DNA of 21,694 nucleotides from a virus. Location of the stretch: IMG/VR virus record IMGVR_UViG_3300030004_000096, positions 1 to 21,694 of that record, one strand, 5' to 3'. A model generated the notes under the pieces. It did not search any database and was not told the origin of the DNA. It saw only the letters and a list, made by a program, of their open reading frames with translations. Below, piece by piece: positions 6,835-20,794 of this stretch (the first letter of the stretch is position 1; every line of letters begins with the position of its first letter). The translations under genes and the position numbers were made by a program.

Positions 6835-7350
6835 ATGGCTATTACTTTTTCTAATTTTGTTCAGGTTTTCATGAACATAAGCGAATATGCTTATAGCAGC
6901 AACGACCTTTTGAATTGTTCAAAGGATCGTAATCTATGCTTAGATGTAAATCACAAATTAAATTCTAATAATATTACATATGAACTTATTAATGATGCTG
7001 ATTATAATAAGGCGCATATTGCATATAATAGAGTTGAAATAGCTCCAATTGATGATTTAATTACTTATAATTCAGCACTTCATGAAATCGGTCATATTTT
7101 GACTACCGATTTAAATCATCTTATGATGGTATATCGGAAGATTGCCGACGAAGGTTTCTTGAATGCTTCAGATAGTCTTTTTCAAGAATATAAAGAAGTT
7201 GCAATTATTTATGAAAATCTGGCTTGGGATTGGGCTAAAACCAATTCTATATCTTGGAATTCAGATGTTGACAAACTTGTTAAAGAGTGTGTGCTTACAT
7301 ACACCGACTCACCACCAATCTCAGTTTTTAGGAATTATGTGGGAATATGA
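6835..7350 (+). CDS. zincin-like metallopeptidase domain protein (HEIGH motif)
   Basis: 171 residues. LHEIGHIL at residues 82-89 is an HExxH zinc-binding motif with a hydrophobic flank typical of gluzincins and related phage zincins. The third ligand is not obvious; Glu residues in DEGFLNASD (after residue 100) or in KEVAIIYENLAWDW are candidates. The N-terminal 70 residues have no recognised domain and no signal peptide is seen, so it would act inside the host. The substrate is unknown. It overlaps the nucleotidyltransferase gene by four bases (ATGA). Confidence 0.65.
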   Translation: MAITFSNFVQVFMNISEYAYSSNDLLNCSKDRNLCLDVNHKLNSNNITYELINDADYNKAHIAYNRVEIAPIDDLITYNSALHEIGHILTTDLNHLMMVYRKIADEGFLNASDSLFQEYKEVAIIYENLAWDWAKTNSISWNSDVDKLVKECVLTYTDSPPISVFRNYVGI

Positions 7351-8321
7351 ATAAAATCGTAGAAATGAATTTTGGCTCTCGTCTTTACGGGACATCTACG
7401 CCTGCTTCTGATATTGATATCAAGGGCGTATACCTTCCTACAGCAGATGATATTCTGTTGGGTCGTATCAAGGGTTCCGTATCTACCAAGCGTCCAAAAG
7501 GCGAGGGTGAGAAGAACTATGCCGGTGAGGTAGACGAAGAATATCATTCACTTGACAAGTTTCTGGATTTGGTCTATCAAGGCCAGACTGTAGCCATCGA
7601 CATGCTATTCGTCAATCCTGAAAATATTATCAGTAAAAATTATATTTGGGATGATATTGTCGCAAATCGTGACAGGCTGATTTCACGAAAGTCAGAGGCT
7701 TTTATTGGCTATTGTATGCAACAGGCCAAGAAGTATGGTATCAAGGGTAGCCGAGTTGCTGCCGTAAGAAGCTCACTTGACTTTCTTAAGAGCTTTCTAG
7801 TAAAGCCTTCTACAAAACTAAGAGAAGTTGCACCTTGGATTGCAAATTTTGTTAGCGAACAAAATAATGAATTTGTTAAAATCGAGCATACATTTCAACA
7901 GTCTGGCGTCGAAATGCTTTTCTTTGAAGTATGTGGTCGTAAAATCCAATTCAATTCTTCTTTGAAAGAAGGTATTGACATTCTTCAGCGATTGATGGAT
8001 GAATACGGTACAAGAGCCCTAATGGCCGAAACCAACACTGGTGTAGACTGGAAAGCACTATCACATGCCGTTCGTATCGCTCAGCAGGCTGTAGAGCTTT
8101 TTGAAACACATAACGTCGTGTTTCCTCGTCACAATGCTGCATATCTTTTGGATATCAAGCAGGGTCGTATTCCTTACGTTGAAGTAGCTGCACAGATCGA
8201 AGACTTGTTCGAAGAAGTAAAAGCAGCATCTTTGAAGTCAACTCTACAAGAGAAGCCAGATAAAGATTGGATTGAAAATTTTATCATAGAAGAATATCGT
8301 GATGTTGTTGTAGAATATTGA
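7347..8321 (+). CDS. predicted nucleotidyltransferase (DNA polymerase beta superfamily, YcgL/COG3541-like)
   Basis: 324 residues. GSRLYGTSTPASDIDIKG at residues 10-27 is the GS...DxD signature of polymerase-beta-type nucleotidyltransferases, with Asp22 and Asp24 as metal ligands and a further acidic position likely near IDMLFV. The C-terminal half is helical. Related genes are common in T4-like phages and are annotated only as predicted nucleotidyltransferases; the target (tRNA end, protein or antibiotic) is unknown. The GC content is slightly higher than in neighbours. It may be read from the intragenic promoter at 6689. Confidence 0.85.
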   Translation: MNKIVEMNFGSRLYGTSTPASDIDIKGVYLPTADDILLGRIKGSVSTKRPKGEGEKNYAGEVDEEYHSLDKFLDLVYQGQTVAIDMLFVNPENIISKNYIWDDIVANRDRLISRKSEAFIGYCMQQAKKYGIKGSRVAAVRSSLDFLKSFLVKPSTKLREVAPWIANFVSEQNNEFVKIEHTFQQSGVEMLFFEVCGRKIQFNSSLKEGIDILQRLMDEYGTRALMAETNTGVDWKALSHAVRIAQQAVELFETHNVVFPRHNAAYLLDIKQGRIPYVEVAAQIEDLFEEVKAASLKSTLQEKPDKDWIENFIIEEYRDVVVEY

Positions 8322-14143: not shown

Positions 14144-14219
14144 CCCTGATAAGCTAATCTAGTGAAAGCGCCTGTCTGAAGAACAGGAGAGTTTCGGGCG
14201 GAACGAAAATCAGGGACCA
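14144..14219 (+). tRNA. tRNA-Phe (GAA) with non-canonical D and T loops
   Basis: Acceptor CCCTGAT pairs perfectly with ATCAGGG, discriminator A, encoded CCA. Anticodon stem CCTGT/ACAGG encloses CTGAAGA (GAA). The T stem TTTCG/CGAAA is perfect but its loop is GGCGGAA instead of TTCRANY, and the D loop AATCTAGTGAA lacks the GG that normally docks with the T loop. The elbow contact must differ from a standard tRNA. Confidence 0.75.
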
Positions 14220-14239: not shown

Positions 14240-14401
14240 ATGAATGAAGCATCATCTGTAACAATTTCACTTGAGCGATTTAACTCCCTATTGGAAGCCG
14301 AAGCCAAGCTAGAAGCTCTAGAGGCTGCTGGTGTTGACAATTGGGATGGCTATGATTATGCTATGGAAATCCTAGCAGAAATGGAAAAGAGTGACAAATG
14401 A
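14240..14401 (+). CDS. hypothetical acidic helical protein, 53 aa
   Basis: ATG 14240 lies seven bases after GGAG; an ATG six bases upstream is too close to that site. The sequence is acidic and alanine/leucine/glutamate-rich (LERFNSLLEAEAKLEALEAA), likely a helical hairpin, ending EILAEMEKSDK. Its TGA overlaps the PTH2 start (ATGA), so it is probably co-translated with the peptidyl-tRNA hydrolase. Confidence 0.65.
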   Translation: MNEASSVTISLERFNSLLEAEAKLEALEAAGVDNWDGYDYAMEILAEMEKSDK

Positions 14402-14781
14402 ACAAGCAAGTAATTCTCGTAAGAACTGATCTAGGAATGTCAATTGGAAAGACAGCCGCTCAGGCCGGTCATGCTGCTATCATGTTTCTCGTTCATCATC
14501 TTACCTACAACATTCCATTTAGCAAAGTCCAGATGGACTGGCTTTTCGAAGAAAAGCTAAAAAATTCTGAGTGGAATTATGGCGGCATGAGAAAGATCGT
14601 TCTGGCTGTTAATGATTTGCAAGAGCTTTTACAACTTGTCAATTTTGCACAGCAGATCGATATCGAGGCCCATTTGGTATTTGATGAAGGTCTAGACTGT
14701 ATTACATGTGCCTCTCTAGGTCCAGATGCAGCCGATAAGATTGATATTGTCACAGATCATCTAACTTTGCTAGGTAAGTAA
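14398..14781 (+). CDS. peptidyl-tRNA hydrolase, PTH2 family
   Basis: 127 residues, a normal PTH2 length. The N terminus NKQVILVRTDLGMSIGKTAA followed by QAGHAA is the signature first strand and helix (K-x-x-AQ-x-x-HA), and the later DEGLDCITCASLGPDAADKI corresponds to the conserved T-x-L-AIGP segment. PTH2 cleaves the ester between peptide and tRNA on drop-off products. The family is typical of archaea and eukaryotes and sporadic in bacteria and phages. Lying among phage tRNA genes, it probably recycles peptidyl-tRNA during fast late translation. Confidence 0.88.
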   Translation: MNKQVILVRTDLGMSIGKTAAQAGHAAIMFLVHHLTYNIPFSKVQMDWLFEEKLKNSEWNYGGMRKIVLAVNDLQELLQLVNFAQQIDIEAHLVFDEGLDCITCASLGPDAADKIDIVTDHLTLLGK

Positions 14782-19161: not shown

Positions 19162-19221
19162 CATAAGCACTCCGTAGCTATAAATAGCAATAATAAGTCT
19201 ATTATAGTTACGGAGGTTTAG
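19162..19221 (+). promoter_or_regulatory. copy 2 of the homing-endonuclease leader: late promoter plus RBS-masking hairpin
   Basis: Arms CTCCGTAGCTATAA (19170-19183) and TTATAGTTACGGAG (19202-19215) form a 14-bp stem with one G-U; the 3' arm contains the GGAGG ribosome site. An exact T4 late octamer TATAAATA lies at 19179-19186, so late RNA should start near 19192, after the 5' arm. Compared with copy 1, two of four base differences face each other at the eighth pair (T-A to G-U), keeping the stem. Confidence 0.75.
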
Positions 19222-19840
19222 CATTTTTATACTATATACAAAATTACAAATAATATCAATGGTAAATTTTATATAGGTAAACATCAAACTACTAATCTTG
19301 ATGATGATTATTTTGGATCAGGAAAACTTCTTAAAAGAGCTATTAAGAAGTATGGTATTGTAAATTTTACTAAAGAAATTCTAGAGGTATATGATACCGA
19401 AGACAAAATGAATCTTGCTGAGAAAATTTTAGTTATAATAGATTTTGAAGTTAGTTATAATATTTGTTCTGGTGGACACGGTGGTTTCGGATATATTAAT
19501 GATATACTTACATTTGAACAAAGATCAAAGATAGGTCAGTCTCCAAAGAAACGTAGAGTTCATAATGAAAAATCATTAAAATCTATTAGAAAAAATATAC
19601 AATATGCAGTAACATTCGTTAATATACCAAGACGACAATTTTTAGCTGGATTAGCTGCAAAACGACCAGAAGTAATGAAAAAACGTAAAGATACATTTCA
19701 AAAAATAAAACATGCTCAAGGTGAAAATAATTCTCAATATGGTACTTGTTGGATTACGAATGGTCAAGAAAATAAGAAGATAAAAAAAAGAAGCTCTTGA
19801 CGAATGGATAAATAAAGGGTATTATAAAGGTAGAATATAA
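19222..19840 (+). pseudogene. GIY-YIG homing endonuclease, decayed
   Basis: The frame from 19222 encodes FYTIYKITNNINGKFYIGKH, the GIY-YIG strand pair, then FGSGKLLKRAIKKYGIVNFT with the catalytic Arg region and EVYDTEDKMNLAEKILV with the acidic helix, followed by a basic DNA-binding part ending QYGTCWITNGQENKKIKK. No usable start codon exists: the frame opens right after a TAG and the first ATG is internal (19408). At the A8 run near 19785 the frame shifts; the other frame continues EALDEWINKGYYKGRI and stops at 19838-19840. I read it as a recently inactivated mobile endonuclease attached to the tRNA-Asp 3' end. Confidence 0.8.
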
Positions 19841-20028: not shown

Positions 20029-20045
20029 CATAAGGCAGACCGAGG

Positions 20046-20120
20046 GGTCGGTAGAAATGGCAGGAGGTACTTAGAAATAGGTATTGGCTCCATGCGCTCT
20101 CGGTGTAGAAATACCCGACC
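20046..20120 (+). ncRNA. tRNA-sized folded element with three TAGAAAT repeats
   Basis: GGTCGG (20046-20051) pairs with CCGACC (20115-20120), giving a 75-base unit of tRNA length with A after the stem. Inside, GGAG pairs with CTCC. TAGAAAT occurs three times (20052, 20072, 20106), and also in a hairpin of the 13.3 kb RNA (13425). No tRNA anticodon or T loop can be recognised. Function unknown. Confidence 0.4.
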
Positions 20121-20128
20121 AAAAGTTT

Positions 20129-20284
20129 ATGTTAGTTGACGAGTGGAGGAATTGGTAATACTCTACGGCTCCTGAAAGGGAAACTGTTCGTTGTCGGGTG
20201 ATTAAATCCGGCTGCCTGTCTATAGGTGGCGAAAGCATTGTAGGTTCGAGTCCTACCTCAGTAAGTATAGACCATTACTAACAT
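20129..20284 (+). ncRNA. enlarged tRNA-like RNA closed by an 8-bp stem
   Basis: ATGTTAGT (20129-20136) pairs exactly with ACTAACAT (20277-20284). Inside are a D-arm-like stretch, GAG-GAATTGGTAATA-CTC, as in Leu/Ser-type tRNAs, and a canonical T arm GTAGG-TTCGAGT-CCTAC (20239-20255). Between them lie about 75 bases, including GC-GAAA-GC and CCT-GTCTAT-AGG hairpins, where a tRNA has an anticodon arm of 17. It may be a tRNA with a large insertion or a tRNA-derived regulatory RNA. Confidence 0.45.
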
Positions 20285-20545
20285 ATTGAATTTAAAAGAG
20301 TAATAAAAATTAAGGAAGTTGGCTTAGAAGCAGCCATCTTTTAAAGAGTTGCAAGTTGTCTGGATTTTATCTTGGACCCAAAGAGATAGAAAAAGTCAAC
20401 AGGGGAAAGACAAGTAAAGTTTATGTATTTTGTTTTACGGGCGAAGCCGTCGAATTAAGTTGCCAATGTCAGTTGGGCCTGATATGCTACGATGATACAT
20501 AAGACCCTCCGAGCATTTGGCGTCATAGCACACTTTCTTTTTTTA
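20285..20545 (+). ncRNA. noncoding RNA carrying a 23S rRNA helix-43 mimic, with U-rich end
   Basis: No gene in about 260 bases. Near the 5' end is the rRNA-like element (20314-20347). Further on are an ACGG/CCGT hairpin (20437-20450), CCAA/TTGG around 20463-20478, and TGCTA-CGA-TGA (20485-20495) pairing with TCATAGCA (20524-20531) with a bulge, followed by TTTCTTTTTTTACT, a terminator-like T-run. No strong promoter lies directly upstream, so it is probably read from an upstream promoter. Confidence 0.55.
20314..20347 (+). other. match to 23S rRNA GTPase-associated centre (helix 43 and junction)
   Basis: Aligned with E. coli 23S rRNA 1055-1088 as I remember it, 32 of 34 bases agree without gaps, including the loop TTAGAAGC with A1067 (here 20326) and the junction TTTAAAGA. 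The two differences are at positions 1058 and 1080, which pair with each other: U-A in E. coli, A-U here, so the stem is kept. Homology to helix 44 (with A1095) stops after 20347. Bacterial L11, L10-stalk and translational GTPases contact this region of the ribosome. Confidence 0.8.
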
Positions 20546-20553
20546 CTCAATAT

Positions 20554-20658
20554 CCTGTATTAGCTTAATGGTAGAGTGACGGAATGTTAATCCGTAGATA
20601 GGGTAGGTCTTAAAATTCTAGATGTATTAAGATGGTTCGATTCCCCTATACAGGTCCA
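20554..20658 (+). tRNA. tRNA-Asn (GUU) with a hairpin inserted at the T arm
   Basis: Acceptor CCTGTAT pairs perfectly with ATACAGG, discriminator T, encoded CCA. Anticodon stem ACGGA/TCCGT encloses ATGTTAA (GUU). The gene is 105 bases: about 32 extra bases lie between a 5' T-stem strand (TAGGG) and the T loop TTCGATT, and contain TCTTAA ... TTAAGA, a 6-bp hairpin. Removing the insert restores a normal T arm with the 3' strand CCCCT. Confidence 0.82.
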
Positions 20659-20663
20659 ATTCT

Positions 20664-20763
20664 CGTGGTATAATTCAGAATTCGAAGATCAGGCTGATTA
20701 AATTCAAAGCCCCGGTATGCCCGGTAAGCTGTCTGATCGGGGAGGTTCAATTGCCTCACGCCA
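20664..20763 (+). ncRNA. unresolved tRNA-like folded segment
   Basis: GATCAG (20687-20692) pairs with CTGATC (20733-20738); CCCCG with CGGGG crosses it. Near the 3' end GAGG-TTCAATTG-CCTC resembles a T arm, followed by ACGCCA. CGTG at 20664 can pair with CACG at 20757. I could not build a full cloverleaf or assign an anticodon. Confidence 0.35.
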
Positions 20764-20794
20764 TGCCTATTTAAAAATATTAAAGGAATTTAAA

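Follow-up and report, generated by a model that had tools for sequence, protein, structure and literature searches.

The window analysed here, meaning the whole 21,694-nt stretch, is a T4-like phage contig encoding a sliding clamp, clamp-loader subunits, and a gp5-like baseplate hub. An RlaP-like nucleotidyltransferase of RNA repair (7347-8321) and a PTH2 peptidyl-tRNA hydrolase (14398-14781) are also present, which fits a phage maintaining its tRNA pool. The element that concerns us carries no annotated gene, as noted earlier, and lies between tRNA genes of the same strand, the next of which begins about 5 nt downstream. A tRNA gene at 14144-14216 is found by Rfam and not by ARAGORN, and a tRNA-like sequence at 20674-20765, which has a stretch resembling a T-arm (GGTTCAATT) and may form acceptor pairs, is called by neither program. 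The approximately 260 nt between the tRNA-Gly gene and the element (20030-20290) look structured and end in a tRNA-like T-arm (GTAGGTTCGAGTCCTAC) with no family match; they may represent a further stable RNA of non-tRNA type or a tRNA containing a large insertion. Between tRNA genes at 19221-19800 there is a frame resembling GIY-YIG-type homing endonucleases (FYTIYKITNNINGKFYIGKHQTTNLDDDYFGSGK...), lacking a starting ATG, whose position resembles that of SegB in the T4 tRNA cluster.

Within the element, a plus-strand block at 20314-20347 (GGAAGTTGGCTTAGAAGCAGCCATCTTTTAAAGA) is identical at 32 of 34 positions to nucleotides 1055-1088 of E. coli 23S rRNA (GGATGTTGGCTTAGAAGCAGCCATCATTTAAAGA), and both mismatches are the two sides of a single base pair, 1058-1080, which is U-A in E. 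coli and A-U in the window. Direct alignment bears out the earlier note on both points. Searching the window with up to two mismatches allowed returned this single site, and dinucleotide-preserving shuffles gave none in 100. The Rfam model of bacterial large subunit rRNA (LSU_rRNA_bacteria, RF02541), a comparison the note had proposed, aligns at 20315-20361 (E = 1.4e-4, 20.8 bits, in a 311-nt search); this score is below the gathering threshold of 50, which was also not reached at any of 20 relative loci.

The resemblance extends beyond helix 43 (H43). The earlier note described an H43 mimic and held that helix 44 (H44) is not preserved; H43 is indeed present, but H44 is found at 20520-20533 (GCGTCATAGCACAC, against GCGTAATAGCTCAC in E. 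coli), displaced by a 166-nt insert and a UUUG linker, and the strand 3' of it closes an H42-like stem. The mimic is the whole GTPase-associated center (GAC), H42-H43-H44, interrupted between 23S positions 1090 and 1091 by an inserted RNA domain (Table 1). H43 and H44 are not contiguous as in full rRNA, being separated by the insert in the window and by 54-370 nt in relatives, and no rRNA adjoins the element. The single-sequence fold of the window RNA is no more stable than those of shuffled sequences (z = -0.36).

Table 1. Features of the GAC-like element and the adjacent tRNA gene, in window coordinates.
Feature	Position	Strand	Evidence and remarks
H42-like closing stem, 5' strand	20298-20314	+	Imperfect, A-U rich; predicted fold pairs it with 20533-20548
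H43 mimic and first strand of H44 (23S 1055-1090)	20314-20349	+	E. coli identity, LSU-model match, kept in relatives
Inserted domain, 166 nt, type 1	20350-20515	+	Between the H43 and H44 blocks; closing pairs 20350-20352 with 20513-20515
Insert helix strand AGGG	20401-20404	+	Pairs with 20505-20508 (CCCT); consensus fold of 17 type-1 copies
Insert helix strand TTATGTAT	20421-20428	+	Pairs with 20495-20502 (ATACATAA); type-1 consensus fold
CGGGCGAAGCCG hairpin	20438-20449	+	Kept in many type-1 inserts by alignment
Type-1 signature GACCCTCCGAGCA, preceding the linker	20503-20515	+	GACCC..MGAG common to type-1 relatives
UUUG linker from insert to H44, phage-specific	20516-20519	+	Kept across copies
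H44 mimic (23S 1091-1104), GCGUCAUAGCACAC	20520-20533	+	With A1095C and U1101A
H42-like closing stem, 3' strand	20533-20548	+	Predicted fold; family covariation
tRNA gene with unusually long insert	20554-20655	+	Rfam tRNA, 44.2 bits, E = 1.3e-6; missed by ARAGORN

This architecture is widespread among large bacterial viruses. BLAST with the H43 block recovered phages XacN1, ME3, GAP32, 4_4572, UNO-G1W1, XaC1, pf16, Vibrio 2.275.O, CBB, Milchi, and Astolliot; Paenibacillus Pd_22F (L006), also in the BLAST list, is a true 23S sequence and was excluded from the family. The isolates found in this way have a second conserved block, TTTGGCGTAAYAGCACAC, 105-264 nt 3' of H43, the GCGTAAYAGC core of which is 23S H44, and the sequence after this block pairs with the sequence before H43, in place of H42. 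When 50,697 phage records were searched by BLAST with the H44 side, largely the same isolates were returned, including Serratia BF, the Erwinia pEa_SNUABM group, XbC2, and Kaldavass. More than 15 isolated phages carry the element, among them XacN1, GAP32, CBB, BF, ME3, pf16, and 4_4572, and every isolate examined has either no annotation across it or a short hypothetical ORF.

An exact scan of IMG/VR with a pattern covering H44 alone matched at least 119 stretches, and approximately 118 loci were examined; among these listed matches, 110 of the approximately 118 are preceded on the same strand, at a distance of 54-370 nt, by an H43 mimic, and host-type H44 or host 23S occurs at none. An H43-only pattern, excluding the usual 23S flank, matched 23 stretches, with no host 23S among its loci and H44 downstream in all 14 of the new non-truncated ones. 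Plain rRNA contamination was considered as a source of these matches and rejected, no contig recovered with the phage-specific patterns having a contiguous host H44. Both blocks were present in 18 of 61 pattern matches in GTDB genomes, the other 43 fitting chance 18-mers, and several of the two-block cases examined share their contig with phage genes (portal, RtcB, RNA ligase/kinase). No convincing copy was found in the plasmids searched.

Conservation was assessed in 105 non-redundant copies, and covariation in 64 aligned non-redundant cores from which the middles of the inserts were removed. Related phages had been suggested earlier as the place to look for a conserved helix, and the H43 mimic is kept with covariation in many of them. 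Over the 64 cores, 92.7% of cells are paired and 405 are compensatory, against a shuffled mean of 128 (sd 10), and the covariation score of 0.565 compares with 0.139 after shuffling and at most 0.173 when the partner is slid by 1-3 columns. Compensatory changes occur in the outer stem, at 1057:1081 and 1058:1080, in the first four pairs of the insert, and at the tertiary pair 1082:1086 (UA 47, CG 9, AU 7); all 64 have UA at the other tertiary pair, 1060:1088. As expected of the GAC fold, pairs 1057:1081, 1058:1080, 1059:1079, 1062-1064:1074-1076, 1087:1102, 1091:1100, and 1092:1099 are formed in 99.5-100% of cells. The H42-like outer stem is the most strongly covarying helix in the relatives: across the 105 copies it pairs over about 9-10 positions, with 73-99% standard pairs against mostly 40-45% or so expected, and then falls to background, while its sequence is not conserved. 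The first 3-4 pairs of the insert also covary across the 105 copies, and H44 in ME3 and several relatives has GU...AC for GC...GC, a compensatory change. We regard it as practically certain that the family is real, a conserved and structured RNA built on a GAC-like core.

Conservation within this core is uneven. Positions 1059, 1060, 1079, 1085, 1087, and 1088, belonging to the fold and L11-binding core, are invariant in the 105 copies. The loop bases are relaxed in the same set, with A1067 kept in 83%, G1068 in 76%, and A1070 in 79%, whereas all 18 true 23S genes compared, taken from varied bacteria, have A, G, and A at these three positions (locus L259, being itself a mimic, was left out of this comparison). 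A1095 is retained in 90% of copies and is C in the window copy. The UUUG linker and A1101 are phage-specific marks, and G1089 and U1090 are nearly fixed. The linker frequencies (UUU in 105 of 105 copies, G in 103 of 105) are due partly to search design, although the linker is also kept in copies found through H43; the invariance of the H44 block is likewise partly imposed by the search pattern, and H43-only copies have the same features. U1061A (GTAGGC), present in 26 of 105 copies, is a known variant that stabilizes the tertiary fold of the GAC and has served in crystallography. An extra hairpin near 23S position 1078 occurs in loci L071, L072, L090, L110, L114, L040, L222, and L228, a second tolerated insertion point.

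The inserts range from about 25 to 365 nt and are highly variable in sequence; there are at least two unrelated recurrent types, and the rest fall mostly outside these two. Type 1, found in the window, XacN1, GAP32, CBB, BF, ME3, and others, has GACCC..MGAG before the linker and a consensus fold in which the helix formed by TTATGTAT and ATACATAA maintains its pairing in relatives though the sequence changes. Type 2, with the signature CACCCCG...CGGTAAGG, accounts for 25 of 105 copies, including those of pf16, 4_4572, UNO-G1W1, and Astolliot. Milchi, Astolliot, and an IMG/VR locus have tandem copies, type 1 followed by type 2 (tandem loci L012, L013, and L083, the last being the IMG/VR one). 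A blastn-short search of the inserts for further pieces of E. coli 16S and 23S rRNA gave chance-level matches only. Hairpins resembling the sarcin-ricin loop are present in 4-6 of the 105 inserts, the motif AGTACn4GGAA being found in 4 of 105 against a null expectation of 0.24. The inserts of L082, L060, L098, and L179 contain such a sarcin-ricin-loop-like hairpin (AGTACnnnnGGAA), and each of these RNAs may combine the two halves of the ribosomal factor-binding site.

The association with tRNA genes is a property of the family as well as of the window. Of the 105 copies, 59 have a tRNA gene no more than 300 nt away, compared with 34 for random positions in the same loci, and where the nearest tRNA is within 1000 nt (66 copies) it is on the same strand in every case. 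Among the 105 copies, a tRNA ends at most 8 nt upstream in 23 and starts at most 14 nt downstream in 25; with tRNA genes so near and on the same strand, the RNA is likely excised during tRNA processing. In XacN1 a promoter-like TTGACT-17-TAATAT stops about 6 nt short of the stem, and a terminator-like hairpin follows the element, both as consensus matches only. In GAP32, CBB, XbC2, Kaldavass, and BF the element occupies the same place, flanked by the same genes. Within 4 kb on either side, no neighboring protein family is shared by more than 4 of the 105 loci, which argues against a cis-regulatory role, and we consider the RNA very probably trans-acting.

On balance, we think it somewhat more likely than not that these phage RNAs form a new, trans-acting family whose members bind ribosomal protein L11. 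The ends of the phage RNA, which spans 20298-20548 in the window, fold like the 23S GAC (H42 stub, H43, and H44), tertiary contacts included, with the variable domain placed in the 5' strand of H44, between 1090 and 1091. Probably the RNA is produced alongside the phage tRNAs, or under a separate promoter as the XacN1 site suggests, and is trimmed to a discrete form. The mimic would then most likely bind host uL11. A 58-nt RNA with A1067 and A1095 folds autonomously and is the L11 binding site (PMC4409310). Two outcomes may be envisaged. Free L11 may be titrated, which could leave ribosomes poor in L11, with a blunted RelA/stringent response and altered factor function; alternatively, L11 may be recruited as the anchor of an RNP in which the insert does further work. 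Loss of L11 gives bacteria a relaxed (relC) state, so titration of L11 could blunt the stringent response. Several observations stand against L11 binding or its consequences: the insert interrupts H44 and might hinder L11, titration would need a very high RNA copy number relative to tens of thousands of ribosomes, and A1067 and A1095 are mostly retained, so contacts made by the loops may matter. The C at 1095 in the window copy and the unremarkable stability of its single-sequence fold also count on this side.

Another reading is that the RNA is a decoy of the factor-binding surface, its 1067 and 1095 loops binding EF-G or other translational GTPases, or stacking on tRNA elbows in the way known for the ribosomal loop and the A/R tRNA in RelA complexes. 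Munishkin and Wool (1997, cited in PMC5829649) reported that EF-G binds RNAs mimicking the thiostrepton domain, and A1067 stacks on the tRNA elbow (PMC5829649). The location of the genes in tRNA arrays and the sarcin-ricin-like hairpin of a few inserts (4 of 105), which would supply the other half of the factor site, also fit such a decoy, though that hairpin is rare. We consider this reading unlikely: 1067, 1068, and 1070 are among the least conserved bases of H43, whereas the buried and L11-side bases are invariant. It is because the fold and the L11 side are invariant and the surface for factors, thiopeptides, and the tRNA elbow is relaxed that L11 binding is favored over a factor decoy.

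The same near-invariant core, set against inserts of about 25 to 365 nt that include at least two unrelated recurring families, and the tandem arrangement of type-1 and type-2 inserts in Milchi and Astolliot, would also suit a modular scaffold. Here the GAC mimic would serve only to anchor the RNA, whether on L11 or on ribosomes lacking it, and the effector would be the hypervariable insert, phage-specific because hosts or defenses differ. Insert variability could equally reflect weak constraint, however, and we think this rather improbable. Quite doubtful, in our judgment, is the idea of an interchangeable rRNA part, in which the RNA would compete with the native GAC for L11 or dock at the stalk base, so that ribosomes of infected cells, or an L11-RNP, would carry a phage-chosen insert at or near the factor site; this might reprogram translation or block a defense sensed through the ribosome, such as the stringent response.

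A cis-acting leader or processing signal for adjoining phage genes would agree with the usual co-orientation of the element and its flanking genes, but is highly improbable, as there is no recurring downstream gene, tRNAs directly abut the element, a terminator-like site follows it immediately in XacN1, and the 23S fold would be left unexplained. A functionless captured fragment of host rRNA, which the earlier note had entertained, or an assembly contaminant would account for the 23S identity, and host-rRNA sequence does occur in phage entries (e.g., the plain 23S of L006), but is effectively excluded by family conservation with strong covariation, by an insert site, UUUG linker, and A1101 common to copies whatever the host, and by synteny in GAP32, CBB, BF, XbC2, and Kaldavass with no rRNA adjoining.

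Two further roles raised from the window sequence have lost ground. Binding of the L10 stalk is disfavored since the L10 site is in the distal region of H42, which is absent here, the H42-like stem ending at about 9-10 bp with its sequence not conserved. A role as target of an rRNA-modifying enzyme is without support: A1067 is the target base of the Tsr/NHR methyltransferases, and it is not A in 17% of copies.

A comparison of the phage RNA with known systems shows both likenesses and disparities. It shares with the 23S GAC (the L11/thiostrepton domain, H42-H44) the sequence of H43 and H44, the secondary structure, and pairs 1060:1088 and 1082:1086, but unlike the GAC it is free-standing, with an H42 of about 9-10 bp, a domain at 1090/1091, the UUUG linker, U1101A, and relaxed loop bases. 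Leaders of ribosomal protein operons also imitate the rRNA binding site of a protein, as does the L1 site in the L11 operon mRNA (PMC10931766). These leaders act in cis on ribosomal protein genes, whereas the phage RNA appears to act in trans and has no recurring downstream gene; in particular, no ribosomal protein gene recurs within 4 kb on either side. The stable RNAs C and D of T4 (species 1 and 2) are similarly non-tRNA stable RNAs of unassigned function in a phage tRNA cluster, and they were rejected as homologs, the sequences compared by eye having no recognizable H43 or H44 blocks. GOLLD and ROOL are large structured RNAs reported from phages, often near tRNAs; the present family differs in being smaller and having an rRNA-like core. 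Neither these nor other Rfam 15 families matched the window or 20 loci, where only tRNA families reached threshold. EBER1 of Epstein-Barr virus is a viral non-coding RNA that binds ribosomal protein L22, a likeness by analogy only, as virus, RNA, and protein are all unrelated. A full-text literature search of partial coverage found no prior description, so that an earlier account in a subscription journal or preprint is possible, and the XacN1 genome paper mentions neither rRNA nor non-coding RNA.

Taken together, this looks like a widespread and undescribed viral way of engaging the host protein-making machinery. Provided that the mimicry has a function, an RNA rather than a protein would be what phages of many host phyla share for engaging the GTPase center of translation, and this would constitute a new class of host-takeover RNA. 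Judging by the titles of genome contigs, Pseudomonadota, Bacillota, Bacteroidota, and Nitrospirota are among the candidate hosts. The family would also provide more than 100 natural variants of a classic model of RNA tertiary folding, in which the fold is conserved and the factor-contact bases are relaxed. Should the RNA prove functional, the question of why phage tRNA clusters hold non-tRNA stable RNAs would become testable.
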